From NCBI RefSeq assembly GCF_005473905.2, contig NZ_CP061336.1, positions 496,001 to 560,000 of the forward strand: a stretch of DNA of 64,000 bases, given 5' to 3'. The notes beneath the pieces were generated by a model. It was not told the origin of the DNA and ran no database searches. It was given only the letters and a program-made list of their open reading frames with translations. A program made the translations under genes and the position numbers. Source of the DNA: Ruminiclostridium herbifermentans (GTDB lineage Bacteria > Bacillota > Clostridia > Acetivibrionales > DSM-1351). This document shows positions 2,614 to 61,943 of the stretch, piece by piece. Position 1 is the first letter of the stretch; every line of letters starts with the position of its first letter.

Positions 2614-3483
2614 CTAAGAGATGCTTTTACTCATTAATTCAAAATATTGCTTAGGAGTCATTCCATATTGAGCTTTGAAGGCCCTGAAAAAATTTGAATA
2701 ATCCCCAAAGCCGCATTGTTCATATACAGAAATAATGGGTAATCCATTTAAAATAAGATATTTGGCTTGAATCAATTTCTTTTGAACAATATATTTATGT
2801 AATGTTGTACCTGAGTACTTTTTGAATTCTCGTAAAAGATGATACTTGCTTAAATAAAATTGCTCCGAAAGCTTATCAATTGTAATTTCCTCATCTAAAT
2901 GGCTATTAATATAATGAATAATTTGGTCAATCAAATTATTTTTTTTTATGTCTATGTCAAGCTTATTGTTGTTATTATAAATAAGCATATTTATATTTAC
3001 TAAAAGTTCAATAATATAGGCTTTATTTAGCAGGTCACTGCCAAACCCCTTATAGTGTTCAAAAGCAATAATTTTTTGTAAAATTGATTTTATATTTTGC
3101 TGCATTTCAAAGCTTACTCTTACAACTGCTTCTTTATTAGGATCTTCAAAGCATTTAGCAAGATTAGTTTCAGCTGTAGATAAGCTCCCTAAAAATGATT
3201 TATTTATCCAAAGTACAATTCGTTCATAGGGAACCTTATGGTCATTAATAATTGCCTGATGCAGTTCCGTGGAATTGATTAGTATAATGTCACCGGGCTT
3301 TAATGAATATGTTTTTCCTTCTGTCAAATAGGTTACATTGCCAGATATGAAGAAATAAAATTCAATAAAATCGTGGTGGTGCAGGTTCACATGTTCAATA
3401 AATGTATCTGAATAATGAAATATCTCGTAGTCCTTAGAAAGCATATACTGTCGAGTTTGATAGCTATGATGCTTTTTTTTCAT
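2614..3483 (-). CDS. AraC-family transcriptional regulator (cupin sensor)
   Basis: This 289-residue one-component regulator has an N-terminal cupin-like half (about 15-160; HHHDFIEFYFFISG and LKPGDIILINSTELHQ are typical of the sugar-binding barrel). A C-terminal pair of helix-turn-helix motifs (about 185-285) includes FGDYSNFFRAFKAQYGMTP, the AraC signature. No membrane segment or signal peptide is present. It is divergent from uxaC across about 470 bases containing a strong inverted repeat, so control of the hexuronate genes is the natural inference. The effector is not readable from sequence. The GAAGG-like ribosome site is weak and 11 nt from the ATG. Confidence 0.88.
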   Translation of the reverse strand: MKKKHHSYQTRQYMLSKDYEIFHYSDTFIEHVNLHHHDFIEFYFFISGNVTYLTEGKTYSLKPGDIILINSTELHQAIINDHKVPYERIVLWINKSFLGSLSTAETNLAKCFEDPNKEAVVRVSFEMQQNIKSILQKIIAFEHYKGFGSDLLNKAYIIELLVNINMLIYNNNNKLDIDIKKNNLIDQIIHYINSHLDEEITIDKLSEQFYLSKYHLLREFKKYSGTTLHKYIVQKKLIQAKYLILNGLPIISVYEQCGFGDYSNFFRAFKAQYGMTPKQYFELMSKSIS

Positions 3484-3574
3484 GTATAGGCTACCTTCTT
3501 TCTGTATTTTATGTTATAAATAGAATTAAAATACAAATATTACTAAGTTATTTGGTTTGAATCATCTGTCTAAA

Positions 3575-3608
3575 AGGATAGCTATAAAATAATTTTATAT
3601 GCTATCCT
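3575..3608. repeat. Inverted repeat, candidate operator
   Basis: AGGATAGC at 3575-3582 is mirrored by GCTATCCT at 3601-3608, and the AT-rich inner arms also pair, with one bulged base. This gives about 16 bp of dyad in only 34 bases. It lies about 90 bases upstream of the AraC start in the divergent gap, so a regulator site or transcript hairpin is plausible. There is no U-tract for a terminator. Confidence 0.5.
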
Positions 3609-3727
3609 GGAAATTTTATCACAGCAATTTTTGCAAGTCAAATAGCAATAAGAACAATATAAGATTATCTAATTTATTAGTATACTTTATATGTGTAGTT
3701 TATTGTTATAATCAACTTTCGCAAATA

Positions 3728-3780
3728 AAAATCTATAGGTGGGGAGAATTATCAGAAGTATCATTGGTTTGTTGCCAAAA
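3728..3780. repeat. Upstream copy of the uxaC-flanking repeat unit
   Basis: AAAATCTATAGG at 3728-3739 is followed by TATCATTGGTTTGTTGCCAAAA ending at 3780 (first bases at 3759). The same 12-mer and motif recur after uxaC at 5379-5620. Orientation is the same. It precedes the uxaC start by about 175 bases. Confidence 0.5.
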
Positions 3781-3955
3781 TAAATGAAATGGAATTAATA
3801 ATACATATCTATGATCAAGATTTTAAATAGTTTGATTTTTTAGTAAACTAATTAATTTTAAGGGATTATAAACTTTTCATTTAATAAGGTTCGCCATACC
3901 TATAATCTTAAATGAAAGCAGATGCAAAATTATTTGTTTGGTTGGAGGTATTATA

Positions 3956-5353
3956 TTGCTGGATGATTATTTTATACTAAGTGGCAATAATTCCAGGTTA
4001 TTATATGACAAATTTGCAAAAAATGCTCCTATTTATGACTTCCATTGCCATCTTTCTGCAAAGGATATTTATGAAGATAAGCAATTTGAGGATATAGCTT
4101 CTATTTGGCTTGGATATGATCATTATAAATGGAGAGCCATGAGATATGCAGGAGTTCCAGAAAAATTTATTACAGGTAATCAGGACGGATTAGTAAAGTT
4201 TAAAAAGTGGGCAAAGACTTGTGAGAGGTTAATTGGAAGTCCCCTTTACCACTGGGCAAATATGGAGTTAAAAGCTTATTTCGGAGTTGATGAGTTTTTA
4301 AAAGAGAGTAATGCAGAAAGCGTATTTGATTTTTGTAATAATAAAATTAAGTTAGAAAAATTATCTCCTGTAAAAATGATAGAAAATTCAAAGGTTAAAT
4401 TAATATGCACGACAGATGATCCAATTGATAGTCTTGAATATCATAGATTAATAAAAACAGAAGGTAAATATTCCTTCAAGGTCCTTCCTACATTTAGGCC
4501 TGATAAGGCGTTGGATATTCTAAAGGAAGGTTTTAGTGAGTATGTAGGAAAACTCTCTGAAAGCAGCAAGCTGAAGATTGAGACATATGAAGATATGATT
4601 AATGCTTTAAAGAATAGAATTCAATATTTTAAGCAGATTGGTTGTCTATTGTCTGACCATTCCTTGGAAAGCATGTCTTATAATTGTACAAATGCTGCAG
4701 AGGTAGAAAATATCTTCACTAACAGACTCAAAGGTAAAAAGATATCAATTGAAGAGGCAGAGAAATATAGAGTATTTACTCTTAAGCTTTTAGCAAATGA
4801 ATATAAAAAGGCTGGGCTAGTAATGCAGCTTCATATAGGAGCTCTTAGAAATACAAATGAAGCAATGTTTAGCAAGATTGGAGCAGATACTGGCTTTGAT
4901 ATAATGAATGATTTTTCTATAGCAGAACCATTAGCAAGAATTCTCAACGATATGGATAGTTCAAAAGGATTGCCAAAGACAATACTGTATTCACTTAATG
5001 CAAAGGACAACCTTGTACTTTCTACGCTATGTCACTGCTACACAGAGGATGGAATACCTGGTAAGGTTCAATTTGGTGCGGCATGGTGGTTTAATGACCA
5101 TAAGGAAGGAATTAGTTCACATTTGAGGTCTATTGCAAATCAAGGTATGCTGGCATATTTTGTTGGTATGCTGACGGATTCTAGGAGTTTTCTCTCATAT
5201 GTAAGACATGATTATTTCAGGAGAATTCTTTGCAGCTTTATTGGTGAACTTGTAGATAATGGTGAATTTGATAATGATGAGAGGATACTAAAGGAATTGA
5301 TTGAAGGCATATGCTATGAAAATATAAAATGCTATTTGGACTTGGTGGAGTAA
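3956..5353 (+). CDS. uxaC: Glucuronate isomerase UxaC
   Basis: Isomerises D-glucuronate to D-fructuronate (and galacturonate to tagaturonate), the first cytoplasmic step after alpha-glucuronidase. About 465 residues, close to the 470 usual for the family. The N-terminal YDFHCHLSAKDIYED carries the amidohydrolase-type metal histidines, and TTDDPIDSLEYH and LHIGALRNTNEAMF are family motifs. I chose TTG at 3956 because GGAGG at 3944-3948 sits 7 nt upstream; an earlier TTG at 3938 would overlap that site. It heads the hexuronate genes and is flanked on both sides by copies of a 65-bp repeat. Confidence 0.95.
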   Translation: MLDDYFILSGNNSRLLYDKFAKNAPIYDFHCHLSAKDIYEDKQFEDIASIWLGYDHYKWRAMRYAGVPEKFITGNQDGLVKFKKWAKTCERLIGSPLYHWANMELKAYFGVDEFLKESNAESVFDFCNNKIKLEKLSPVKMIENSKVKLICTTDDPIDSLEYHRLIKTEGKYSFKVLPTFRPDKALDILKEGFSEYVGKLSESSKLKIETYEDMINALKNRIQYFKQIGCLLSDHSLESMSYNCTNAAEVENIFTNRLKGKKISIEEAEKYRVFTLKLLANEYKKAGLVMQLHIGALRNTNEAMFSKIGADTGFDIMNDFSIAEPLARILNDMDSSKGLPKTILYSLNAKDNLVLSTLCHCYTEDGIPGKVQFGAAWWFNDHKEGISSHLRSIANQGMLAYFVGMLTDSRSFLSYVRHDYFRRILCSFIGELVDNGEFDNDERILKELIEGICYENIKCYLDLVE

Positions 5354-5378
5354 GAATGAAACTCAGCCTTTCCTGCTC

Positions 5379-5620
5379 AAAATCTATAGGCACTCAAACA
5401 TATTAATGGTTTTTTGCGAAAGTGTATAAATACCTTTTAAGAAGCCTTTTAAATATTGCTCAAACTTATCAATGGTTAGTTGACAAAGGTAAAGTTTATG
5501 TGGTTTGGTATAGTGTTACAGAGAGCAAACTTATCAATGGTTAGTTGAGAAAGATAAAGTTTATGTGGCTTGGTATAGTGTTATAGAGTTTAAACTTGTC
5601 ATTGGTTTATTGCTAAAAAA
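5379..5620. repeat. Four degenerate tandem copies of a ~65-bp unit after uxaC
   Basis: The core TATCAATGGTTnnTTGnnAAA starts at 5401, 5467, 5532 and 5597 (spacing 66, 65, 65). The middle two units are nearly identical over their full length, while the outer two are diverged. The first is preceded by AAAATCTATAGG (5379-5390), also found upstream of uxaC at 3728. The array fills the 412-base gap before the aldolase gene. Confidence 0.8.
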
Positions 5621-5765
5621 CATAAAAGTATAGTTGGCGCTTACTTTGTGAACTTTATATTTAGTTGAATAATGAATTTTATAATGTGAGATAAATAATG
5701 GATAGTAGATTTTGTATAATAGTAGATTTTGCATATAGGATTGACAATTATAGGAGGACATATAA

Positions 5766-6740
5766 ATGAATGAAATACTAAAGAAAATTTCTTTAATTGG
5801 CATAGTGCCAGTTATTAAGATTAATGATGCAGAAAAGGCGGTACCGCTTGCAAAAGCATTAAGTGATGGTGGCATTCCTACAGCAGAAATTACCTTCAGA
5901 ACAGAGCAAGCGGAAGAAGCAATAAATCGAATTACAAAGAATGTGCCTGATATGCTTGTGGGTGCTGGTACAGTTTTGACTACTGAACAGGCTGACCGTG
6001 CTATTAATGCAGGAGCTAAGTTTATTGTCAGTCCAGGTTTTAATCCTAAGGTAGTGGAACACTGTGTAAGAAAAGGAGTTCCCATTACTCCGGGATGTTC
6101 AAATCCTAGTGATATTGAACAGGCTATAGAGTTTGGATTAGACGTAGTAAAGTTTTTCCCAGCAGAGGCATTAGGTGGAGTTAAAATGCTAAAAGCACTT
6201 TCAGGGCCATATGGCAATATTAGCTTTATACCAACAGGAGGGATTGATGCAACTAATATTAAGGAATACCTTTCCTTTTCAAAGGTTATTGCCTGTGGTG
6301 GAAGCTGGATGGTACCAGAAAATTTAATTAAACAAGGAAACTTTGAAAAAATAACAATTCTTGCACGAGAGGCAATAGAGAGTATACTTGGCTTTAAAAT
6401 TTCACATGTTGGTATAAACTGTGAAAATGAGGAACAGGCAGGTGGAGTTGCAGTAAGCTTTTCAAAATTGCTGAACCTTGACCTCTACAATGGAAGCACA
6501 TCAATATTTGCAGGTAATTCTGCAGGAAATATTATTGAAGTTATGAAAACACCAAATAGAGGTAAGCACGGACACATTGCAATTAAAACAAATTATATAG
6601 ATAGAGCGGTTAATTATATGACTAGCAGGGGTTATAAATTTGACCAATCAACTGCTAAGTATGATTCAAATAATAAATTGCGTGACATTTATATAGAAAA
6701 CGAGATAGGTGGTTTTGCAATACATTTAGTACAGCAATAG
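5766..6740 (+). CDS. KDPG/KHG aldolase fused to a VOC (glyoxalase-like) domain
   Basis: Splits 2-keto-3-deoxy-6-phosphogluconate into pyruvate and glyceraldehyde-3-phosphate, the last step of hexuronate breakdown. Residues 1-205 form the class I aldolase barrel, with the Schiff-base Lys129 (VVKFFPAEALGG), Glu41 and Arg45 (EITFRT), close to Glu45/Arg49/Lys133 of E. coli Eda. Residues 213-324 are a VOC-fold module (ISHVGINCENEEQA ... HIAIKTNYIDRAVNYM ... FAIHLVQQ). Plain Eda is about 210 residues, so this is a true two-domain fusion with no internal start needed. Its extra domain may act on a related ketose or serve structure. The ATG follows an AGGAGGA site. Confidence 0.92.
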   Translation: MNEILKKISLIGIVPVIKINDAEKAVPLAKALSDGGIPTAEITFRTEQAEEAINRITKNVPDMLVGAGTVLTTEQADRAINAGAKFIVSPGFNPKVVEHCVRKGVPITPGCSNPSDIEQAIEFGLDVVKFFPAEALGGVKMLKALSGPYGNISFIPTGGIDATNIKEYLSFSKVIACGGSWMVPENLIKQGNFEKITILAREAIESILGFKISHVGINCENEEQAGGVAVSFSKLLNLDLYNGSTSIFAGNSAGNIIEVMKTPNRGKHGHIAIKTNYIDRAVNYMTSRGYKFDQSTAKYDSNNKLRDIYIENEIGGFAIHLVQQ

Positions 6741-6904
6741 TAACTAAATTGCATACAAAACATATAATCAAGCTTTGCACATGAATTCTACTGGTGTATT
6801 GATCTAGTTAGTATAATACATTGTGATGATATAGTGCATCTTGGATTATATAAACTGATATTGTTGCTATATGCATACTAGTATAAAAAGGATGGTAGAA
6901 TACT

Positions 6905-7927
6905 ATGAAGAAAGTGGTAACTTTTGGGGAATTAATGTTAAGGTTGGCGCCAAACGGCTATTTACGTTTTGTACAGGCTGACTCTTTTGAGGCAACTTAT
7001 GGAGGTGGAGAGGCCAATGTAGCAGTCTCTCTTTCCAATTTCGGAGTGGATGTAAAATTTATCACAAAGCTGCCAGCACATGAGATTGGACAAGCAGCGG
7101 TAAATTCATTAAGAAAATATGGAGTTGATACATCTGGTATAGCTAGAGGAGGAGCAAGAGTAGGTATATATTATCTAGAAAAGGGTGCATCACAAAGACC
7201 TTCAAAAGTTATATATGATAGAGCATTTTCCGCAATATCATTGGCTGAACCTAAGGATTTTAACTGGGATGAAATATTTGAGGATGTAGAGTGGTTTCAC
7301 TTTACAGGAATAACACCGGCACTTAGTAGTGGTGTAGCAGATATTTGTCTTGAGGCATGTAAAAAAGCCAAAGAAAAGGGAATAAGGGTAAGCCTTGATC
7401 TCAATTACAGAAAAAACCTTTGGTCGCCAGAGAAGGCGCAAGAGGTTATAACAAAATTAACTCCATATATAGATGTTTGTATTGCTAATGAAGAGGATGC
7501 AGAAAAGGTATTTGGAATAAAGGCAGACAATACAGACATTACAGGTGGAAAAATAAATTATGAAGGCTACAAGCAGGTTGCAGAAAAATTGGTTCAGAAA
7601 TATGGTTTTAAGATGGTGGCAACTACCTTAAGAGAAAGCATTTCAGCAAGTGACAACAATTGGTCAGCAATGCTTTATGATGGAAAGGAATTTTATTTTT
7701 CAAAGAAATACAGTGTTCATATTGTAGATAGAGTAGGTGGGGGAGATTCCTTTGGAGCAGGTTTAATTTATTCTCAGTTAAATAATTTTACTCCACAGGA
7801 ATCAATAGAGTTTGCAGTTGCAGCTAGCTGTTTAAAGCATACCATTGAAGGGGATTTCAACCTTATGTCGGTGGCTGAGGTTAAAGCTCTTGCAAGTGGA
7901 GATGCTTCTGGCAGAGTGCAAAGATAA
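6905..7927 (+). CDS. kdgK: 2-keto-3-deoxygluconate kinase (PfkB family)
   Basis: Phosphorylates KDG with ATP to KDPG, linking mannonate dehydratase to the aldolase encoded upstream. At 340 residues it is a typical ribokinase-like sugar kinase. The N-terminal PfkB motif includes YGGGEANVAVSLSNFG, and the C-terminal signature DRVGGGDSFGAG carries catalytic Asp281. YLRFVQADSF near residue 18 and the YYLEKGASQRPSKVIYDR segment are typical of KDG kinases rather than fructokinases. It is in line with the eda-like and uxu genes, so substrate assignment rests on both motifs and context. The ribosome site upstream (AAGGATGG) is moderate. Confidence 0.92.
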   Translation: MKKVVTFGELMLRLAPNGYLRFVQADSFEATYGGGEANVAVSLSNFGVDVKFITKLPAHEIGQAAVNSLRKYGVDTSGIARGGARVGIYYLEKGASQRPSKVIYDRAFSAISLAEPKDFNWDEIFEDVEWFHFTGITPALSSGVADICLEACKKAKEKGIRVSLDLNYRKNLWSPEKAQEVITKLTPYIDVCIANEEDAEKVFGIKADNTDITGGKINYEGYKQVAEKLVQKYGFKMVATTLRESISASDNNWSAMLYDGKEFYFSKKYSVHIVDRVGGGDSFGAGLIYSQLNNFTPQESIEFAVAASCLKHTIEGDFNLMSVAEVKALASGDASGRVQR

Positions 7928-55045: not shown

Positions 55046-55560
55046 TTTTTACATTCTTTAGTATTTTAATAGTTACAAATATTATATAGTTTAGAATAAA
55101 GTCTTGAACTTAGAAAATTGCTTAGTTCGAGACTTTTTATATTGCAGCATATTCAACTATGAAATTTTAGTATGAAAGCTTGTCAGAATGTTATAATTTG
55201 TGCGAGAATTTAGGATAATAAGAGAAGTATATTTTATAATTAAAATAAATCACTGCTTTGTGTTATTATTTTATTACCTTACAGGAAAGTTTATTGTACT
55301 GGTTTAATGGTACTTCCGTACAAACTTATCTAAATGGAATTACCACCAAGTAAATTATTTATCTAAGTTGTACTCGCGTACCAGTATAAACTGCGGGTAA
55401 AATTATACTATTAGTTAACTGGTACTTCAGTGTAAATGTACCTAAATTGGATACTAAGATAATATATTGAGTGGCGTGTAAGTAATAAGCGATTAGCAGC
55501 TGTCAACTAAGTTAAAAATAAAATAGCATAACGACTTAAATAAGGAGATTTAATTAAAAT
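55046..55560. other. Upstream region of the amidase with repeated palindromes
   Basis: A 515-base gap. GTAC-N4-GTAC dyads occur at 55310-55321 and 55370-55381 (spaced exactly 60), with a degenerate third at 55422-55433. Each is accompanied by related flanking words such as CTAAATGGA/CTAAATTGGA. No gene recognised. Confidence 0.55.
55310..55433. repeat. Three GTAC-N4-GTAC boxes (60/52-base spacing)
   Basis: GTACTTCCGTAC, GTACTCGCGTAC and GTACTTCAGTGT upstream of the amidase gene, in a roughly 55-60 bp periodic pattern. Candidate regulator sites or decayed tandem repeat. Confidence 0.5.
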
Positions 55561-61681: not shown

Positions 61682-61943
61682 AAAACCTCCCACGCCCCAT
61701 TTGGCATAAAATATAATGATTTTTATGTGGAGAACCTCTAATTCACAGAGGTACGTAATATTTTGTAAAGTTTCATCAGCATTTTCACACTAACTCTTAA
61801 TTATAATTGTTAATAACTCAATGCGGACGTATGCTTCGATAGCTTAATCAACATGCACATTGTGACCTAACTCTGTCAAAAATACTTGTGTTTTTTGAAG
61901 TTCGAAAATGCACCATGTATAAACAAACGTTGTTTCGAACTTT
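61682..61943. other. Unusual 262-base gap inside the trp operon
   Basis: Lies between trpD and trpC, whose neighbours otherwise overlap or nearly touch. It contains a perfect 10-bp dyad AAGTTCGAAA (61898-61907)/TTTCGAACTT (61933-61942) just after the trpD stop. On the coding strand the bases after it are A-rich, not U-rich, so it is not a classic terminator. No open frame of note. Confidence 0.55.

Follow-up and report, generated by a model that had tools for sequence, protein, structure and literature searches.

The uxaC locus and its repeats

The stretch of DNA analysed here, called the window throughout, comprises 64,000 nucleotides of the genome of Ruminiclostridium herbifermentans, a species that was placed beside R. 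sufflavum in a comparative study (PMC10701907). A short repeated core lies on both sides of uxaC, the gene for glucuronate isomerase, a gene (PF02614) that was found in all 11 genomes of the genus. The features at the locus are as follows, where the strand of the two elements is that of the core.

2614..3483, minus strand: AraC-family regulator gene (PF12833, PF02311), as called in the original prediction
3711..3923, plus strand: upstream decayed element (R1 near arm, far-arm similarity, sister comparison)
3728..3739, plus strand: AAAATCTATAGG, a portion of the arm consensus (aligned copies)
3759..3779, plus strand: core copy, 1 mismatch
3956..5353, plus strand: uxaC, glucuronate isomerase, likely TTG start after GGAGG (PF02614, E 1e-192)
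5355..5360, no strand: AATGAA, possible left target duplication of the downstream element (by eye; suggestive only)
5361..5670, plus strand: downstream decayed element with internal tandem duplication, end points inferred (R1 matches, spacer length)
5401..5421, plus strand: core copy, 1 mismatch
5461..5590, plus strand: two 65-bp tandem units, 59/65 identical
5467..5487, plus strand: core copy, exact
5532..5552, plus strand: core copy, exact
5597..5617, plus strand: core copy, 2 mismatches
5671..5676, no strand: AATGAA, possible right target duplication of the downstream element (by eye; suggestive only)
5766..6740, plus strand: KDPG/KHG aldolase gene, past the downstream element (PF01081, E 3.3e-74)

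The original prediction had placed one core upstream and four downstream of uxaC, and these positions, 3759, 5401, 5467, 5532, and 5597, were borne out, though exact TATCAATGGTTnnTTGnnAAA occurs only at 5467 and 5532, with one mismatch at 3759 and 5401 and two at 5597. When the window was searched with a core one base shorter, allowing up to three mismatches, 8 matches were obtained compared to a shuffle mean of 2.8, none of 100 shuffles reached 8, and the reported cores make up five of these matches. The regular period of 65 to 66 bases that had been claimed holds for the spacings of the downstream cores, which are 66, 65, and 65, but true tandem identity is confined to 5461-5525 and 5526-5590, where 59 of 65 letters are identical, and the remaining pairings of the four downstream units have only 21 to 34 of 65 letters in common; the TRF call is 5461-5607 with 2.3 copies. 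Within the downstream element a segment seems to have been duplicated in tandem, giving the 65-bp units, and the earlier suggestion of a decaying tandem array is right in part, for the two units that are truly tandem and lie within this one element. The spacer portion of the unit had no match elsewhere in the genome at E ≤ 0.001, with 40 of 84 candidates scored. Immediately past the downstream element, at 5702-5735, there are two 17-bp tandem units (ATAGTAGATTTTGYATA) that are 94% alike. AAAATCTATAGG does accompany the upstream core and the first downstream core, at 3728 and 5379, as had been noted, but the pair alone is within chance, as two or more matches at up to one mismatch were found in 31 of 100 window shuffles; this 12-mer has three exact copies genome-wide and belongs to a longer arm.

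Copies elsewhere in the genome and in related genomes

A sequence model of the core half, R1, was trained on 21 copies, of which 20 belong to this genome, 1 belongs to another genome of the genus, G005, and none comes from the window, and it recovers all five window cores with E values of 5e-15 to 4e-4. In the upstream element the near arm at 3711-3801 is matched at E 5.2e-15, and in the downstream element the matches are at 5368-5421 (7.4e-8), 5455-5487 (9.3e-6), 5525-5552 (3.7e-4), and 5581-5635 (3.5e-5). The upstream far arm, at about 3870-3923, has 71-76% identity over 42-56 bases to the far arms of other loci (E 0.001-0.004 in a 318-kb set), and a profile of the far arm did not recover it. 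The terminal inverted repeats have decayed in both window copies, and both copies are decayed.

The core is found at up to three mismatches 199 times in the 4.82-Mb genome compared to 54 times for the reversed pattern, and the aligned genomic copies have a longer arm in common. When 150 of 5565 first-pass candidates in this genome and 150 in each of the other genomes were scored, R1 gave at least 128 matches in this genome, a number that includes the training copies of the model and in which one element can match by both arms, 15 in the sister species G009, 2 in G005, 1 each in G001, G003, G004, and G010, and none in G002, G006, G007, and G008. Of 92 core clusters, taken from regions chosen for holding matches and with the two window sites included, 91 are intergenic, lying clear of ORFs of 110 codons or more, which take up 66% of the regions, and on this count a protein-coding reading of the core was set aside. 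The neighbours of the copies, as read from translations and without a family search, include genes for an ABC transporter, thiC, an indolepyruvate oxidoreductase-like protein, and peptidases. Thus, the repeat is real yet it is not specific to uxaC, and the proposed search of the genome for the core gave many copies beside unrelated genes, an outcome that the original prediction had named as refuting it.

A lack of conservation in close relatives, the other outcome that the original prediction had named as refuting it, was also seen: at up to three mismatches the core was missing from the uxaC flanks read at each of the 10 other loci of the genus, the upstream flanks being shortened by contig ends in G008 and G009, of which the 263 bp of G009 still include a block conserved with R. 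herbifermentans. This block, marked by TTTTATCACAG, lies at about 3614-3690, upstream of the element, and contains no core, and the upstream element sits between it and the ribosome-binding site of uxaC. Block and ribosome-binding site lie about 330 bp apart here but only about 111 bp apart in G009, a difference of about 219 bp, and the spacer between uxaC and the aldolase gene is 76 bp in G009 and 412 bp here, which is 336 bp less in the sister species; the spacers have diverged and the insertion junctions could not be read to the base. Both flanks of uxaC here carry extra sequence of element size compared to G009. In G009 uxaC is followed by the KDPG aldolase gene and the repeat is missing, and since the pair exists there free of the repeat, it was the repeat that arrived and not the gene, contrary to the earlier idea that a repeat had brought uxaC in. 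The thiC region behaves in the same way: in a 16-kb stretch five copies are present here and absent at the matching places of G009, three of these sites measuring 825, 541, and 295 bp here and 57, 207, and 90 bp, respectively, in G009, and the other two copies lying within a 3.3-kb segment that is wholly missing from G009, genes included. One weak R1 match (E 6e-4) was found elsewhere in the thiC stretch of G009.

Fuller copies, the TwoAYGGAY fold and target duplications

Eleven fuller copies chosen by eye, 10 from this genome and 1 from G005 (twelve were extracted, E9 being given no ends), are palindromes of 159-479 bp. Folded at minimum energy, 9 of the 11 have the core arm paired to the far arm and 2 do not, and the best fold is one of 382 nt with -119.8 kcal/mol. 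The inside of these copies varies from a short loop to nested hairpins or another module, and they have terminal inverted repeats, TTCAACTTTC..GAAAGTTGAA and related ends and also CTCAAACTTC... In an Rfam scan the nested module was TwoAYGGAY (RF01731), on the strand opposite to the core, in 4 of the 11 loci, with 55.3 bits in L052, which is above the cut-off of 43, and 42.8, 39.8, and 32 bits in L013, L070, and L027, respectively, which are below it; the other 7 gave no match. In print since 2010, TwoAYGGAY is described as a probable structured RNA with no assigned function (Weinberg 2010, PMC2864571), and it is labelled cis-regulatory in Rfam. At E ≤ 0.001 it was detected in 6 of 11 genomes of the genus, 29 of 58 genomes of the order, and none of 14 controls, and above the cut-off in 19 of the 58. 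There are 9 matches in this genome, two of which (2533023 and 3103917) lie within elements with R1 arms while the others have different arms. The two window copies themselves match no Rfam family: there was no RF01731 match at E ≤ 1 in 3000-7000, nothing reached the gathering cut-off (43 bits) in the whole window, and on the TwoAYGGAY strand the two copies fold no better than shuffles (z -1.27 and +1.09), nor does the downstream region on the other strand (z 1.10).

An alignment was made of 21 of the 30 TwoAYGGAY loci of the genus, leaving out L098 and L106, which are the same sites as others, L109, which is short, L115, which is of full length but divergent and without the core-like helix, and L120-L124. 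In the 21 aligned loci complementary arms extend outward from the Rfam match on both sides, and in them the place of the core is taken by ATCAATGG or the variants AAATGGG, AAATGCG, and AATTGCG; L115 also has complementary arms, without a word of this type. The 15 pairs predicted beyond the Rfam match are 90.9% paired. Changes on both sides were seen in 13 of the 15, the shuffle mean being 10.1 and 13 being reached by 8 of 500 shuffles, and the covariation of these outer pairs was 0.631 compared to 0.254 in shuffles, none of 500 reaching it, and 0.044-0.217 with slid partners, controls that leave some effects of relatedness, for a structure predicted from the same alignment. Internal loops that are not complementary recur, GNGA on one side in 15 of 21 loci and GRRA on the other side in 17 of 21 by hand count; the two members of the window subfamily, G000_E3 and G005c, are without this loop.

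With respect to flanking genes the core clusters have no preferred orientation: among the 62 of 92 clusters for which both neighbours are known, both genes read along the TwoAYGGAY strand in 22 and against it in 25, and 15 are mixed. A few other arrangements were seen. In the window, 55293-55452 has outer arms GGTACTTCCGTAC .. GTACTCGCGTACC like those of L117 and without the inner module, which looks like another TwoAYGGAY-type subfamily, and 61872-61928 is common to other loci and resembles the alternative inner module CTCGAAAGTATAG..ACTTTCGAGTCTCAAAAA of some copies. Pairs of TwoAYGGAY in opposite orientation about 70-100 bp apart are present in G057 (C231:3184-3336 minus and 3404-3558 plus) and in G040 (C136:5727-5867 minus and 5965-6123 plus). 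RF01731 matches stand at contig extremities in G055 (C3, C27, C87), G045 (C119, C144), and G049 (C112, C118), as expected if near-identical copies break draft assemblies.

TwoAYGGAY elements transpose. For the one full element of G005, which is of the window subfamily, the empty site is found in G006, where the flanks, at 93% identity along some 1.45 kb to either side, are joined; the eight bases TAAATAAA occur once in G006 and, by eye, the imperfect forms TAAATGCA and TAAGTAAC flank the element in G005. At the same site in the genome of the window there is, again by eye, an element of another TwoAYGGAY-like subfamily (L140, G000 C1:1713307-1713666), which can be read either as a repeatedly hit target or as a replacement. 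Six copies in G045, a genome from elsewhere in the order, have GGGTGTATT..AATACACCC ends, and all six exceed the RF01731 cut-off (four were re-scanned); they are flanked by 9-base direct repeats that agree in 8 or 9 of 9 letters each. Their sum is 50 of 54 letters, and of the 720 possible pairings only the true one reaches 50, the mean being 23.8 and the next best 46; duplication lengths of 5-8 and 10-12 gave no signal in G045. Here 12 of 19 matches were taken, 10 of the 12 were aligned (L237 and L244 were omitted), and 6 of the 10 passed a criterion of end motifs derived from the same alignment, the other 4 having other ends. In G049, a second such genome of the order, where 10 of 17 matches were taken and all 10 used, the copies are 84-97% identical over 204-236 aligned bases in unrelated flanks, and direct repeats of 6 and 7 bases were detected with p 0.0076 and 0.0041, respectively (20,000 permutations, seven lengths tried). 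In the genome of the window the duplication test on 32 candidates gave a best z of 2.0 and p 0.026 among 52 settings, with 2 of 32 having at least 7 of 8 duplication letters, and this test is weak, many candidates being old or having doubtful far ends. No clear duplication was seen by eye at the ends in G011, G054, and G055. The duplication length varies between genomes, being 9, 6-7, and perhaps 8. No transposase with these ends was found; the one stretch of 1.15 kb bounded by arms that was viewed, at 421-422 kb, had no ORF of at least 70 codons; at other loci the translations between neighbouring cores resemble ordinary genes.

Origin of the uxaC repeats and comparison with known systems

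The repeats around uxaC are very probably two decayed MITE-like insertions, one of them with an internal tandem duplication, and not AraC sites. The original prediction had offered regulator sites as one reading, under which uronate catabolism would be controlled through binding of the AraC-family protein encoded nearby, or of some other transcription factor, to the core, and in its favour there are five cores around uxaC and an AraC-type gene divergent upstream. But the core is found genome-wide, with at least 128 R1 matches beside unrelated genes, it is missing at uxaC in the 10 other genus loci read, and the block conserved with the sister species upstream of the element is without it, so that operators have become a very improbable reading. 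We rejected an AraC-family operator at uxaC as it is neither kept with uxaC in relatives nor limited to a regulon, and no evidence of regulation of uxaC through the core was seen. Chance similarity in AT-rich DNA would suffice for the AAAATCTATAGG pair by itself, but for the repeat as a whole its probability is negligible, and it is already refuted by the E value of 5e-15 for the upstream copy, the 4 of 11 genus genomes without an R1 match, and the 54 reversed-pattern sites against 199.

Two further explanations concern the fold. A role as a CsrA-binding sRNA has been proposed for TwoAYGGAY (PMC4333381), and a structured RNA may have been spread by host duplication and selected for such regulation, its mobility being incidental. 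The compensatory changes, the recurring non-complementary internal loops, GGA in the loop of hairpin 2 in 21 of 21 genus TwoAYGGAY loci, and csrA in 50 of the 58 genomes of the order are all in line with this, but GGA is in the loop of hairpin 1 in only 10 of the 21, TwoAYGGAY is present in 25 of 50 csrA-positive and in 4 of 8 csrA-negative genomes (three of those four being 83-87% complete), there is no strand preference, the target duplications in G045 and G049 are clear, and the decayed window copies are left unexplained; altogether we regard this explanation as improbable. Co-occurrence as a sign of CsrA was set aside, as there was no association with TwoAYGGAY in a test of little power because csrA is in 50 of the 58 genomes. 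The genome of the window has two csrA genes about 2.4 kb apart (G000 C1:162408-162563 and 164863-165021), and nearly all other csrA-matching genomes of the order have a single one. The other explanation is that template switching or gene conversion in palindromes, and not selection on the fold, keeps the arms complementary. Long palindromes are prone to such correction, and the arms here are complementary whichever strand is transcribed. Correction should erase mismatched loops, yet GNGA (15 of 21) and GRRA (17 of 21) recur on opposite sides, an argument that covers TwoAYGGAY loci generally, the window subfamily being without that loop, and we consider this explanation unlikely, though less so than the selected RNA.

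For the preferred reading, insertion of a small non-autonomous transposable element of the MITE type in the spacers before and after uxaC, the following course of events may be proposed. Fuller members are long imperfect palindromes whose two arms, one of them holding the core, fold back on each other and enclose an inner module; in some copies this module is the TwoAYGGAY fold on the opposite strand. A transposase acting in trans, which presumably exists, would act on the terminal inverted repeats so that copies enter AT-rich intergenic DNA, each insertion would duplicate a few target bases, and the copies would decay afterwards; in the downstream copy at uxaC a segment of core plus spacer would have been duplicated in tandem to give the 65-bp units. 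For the family, the best-supported mechanism is that a transposase supplied in trans mobilises the terminal inverted repeats, by likeness to MITEs in general (PMC10969869), and the window copies would have arrived by the same process as the TwoAYGGAY elements. Several observations count against this reading: the weak duplication test in the genome of the window, the failure to find a transposase with these ends, the window copies that neither match an Rfam family nor fold better than shuffles, the 2 of 11 fuller copies in which core arm and far arm stay unpaired, the RF01731 matches of this genome with arms other than those of R1, the weak R1 match in the thiC stretch of G009, and the unequal duplication lengths. 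Because the upstream insert sits between the conserved block and the ribosome-binding site, an effect on uxaC expression is possible: the inserts lengthen the uxaC leader and the spacer between uxaC and the aldolase gene, and expression may or may not change. For annotation, the warning is that an intergenic repeat next to a sugar gene in this genus need not be an operator and can be the debris of a mobile element.

Because some intact relatives of the uxaC repeats carry the TwoAYGGAY fold, these data suggest that TwoAYGGAY RNA travels through genomes inside small transposons. We go further only tentatively, and with some doubt, in proposing that TwoAYGGAY is the conserved structural core of a widespread class of clostridial mini-transposons and not mainly a host regulatory RNA. 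If this is true, these mini-transposons keep one fold and swap their ends, and hence the transposase and the duplication length. Selection would then act on the folded core, either in RNA form or as single-stranded DNA, and the uxaC repeats would be fossils of one lineage that was amplified in this species. The enclosed fold may matter to the element or to the host: it might control copying, capture a host protein such as CsrA, or soften the harm to neighbours. That TwoAYGGAY lies inside inverted ends and target duplications, with structure beyond the Rfam model, changes what needs testing, which shifts to the unit, its mobility, and why a fold that spans families rides on interchangeable ends. 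Mobility is not mentioned in the available portions of published accounts of TwoAYGGAY and RF01731, the words TwoAYGGAY, Rfam, and Clostridi have no occurrence in the accessible text of a review of MITEs (PMC10969869), and by title no such link appeared for MITEs in Clostridium or Ruminiclostridium or for structured or noncoding RNA with target duplications. No publication linking TwoAYGGAY to MITEs was found in a search that reached few subscription papers.

Among the closest known systems is TwoAYGGAY itself, which is enclosed by some fuller copies (1 of 11 loci above the cut-off and 3 below) and spread over the order; the window copies have no match to it, and the element extends past the Rfam model in palindromic arms. 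Prokaryotic MITEs (PMC10969869) are likewise short, AT-rich, and intergenic, with inverted ends, stable predicted hairpins, and target duplications, the last of which are clear here in the TwoAYGGAY elements of G045 and G049. The family of the window copies is short and dispersed and has terminal inverted repeats and no transposase gene inside, and empty sites exist in relatives, in G006 for the G005 element and in the sister species for both uxaC inserts. Compared to MITEs generally, one fold is found here order-wide across families with different ends and duplication lengths, and no parent transposase was found in the one arm-bounded 1.15-kb stretch that was viewed. The bcr1/BCR repeats of the Bacillus cereus group, of 100-400 bp and with up to 130 copies per genome, resemble this family in being limited to one bacterial group and in having features of mobile elements, but their mobility is tied to a TTTAT motif (PMC6542083), whereas TwoAYGGAY elements have inverted ends and duplications of 9 bp or 6-7 bp; this likeness is one of description. 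In the BrickBuilt MITE of Porphyromonas gingivalis (PMC4596501) a tandem repeat lies in an intergenic MITE, as do the 65-bp units, but its unit is of 23 nt and the uxaC unit is of 65 bp, with two good copies and a spacer matched only here. Finally, the palindromes of the REP/RAYT system (PMC3733652) are also intergenic and of high copy number, but REPs are of 20-40 bp compared to the 159-479 bp of the fuller copies described here.
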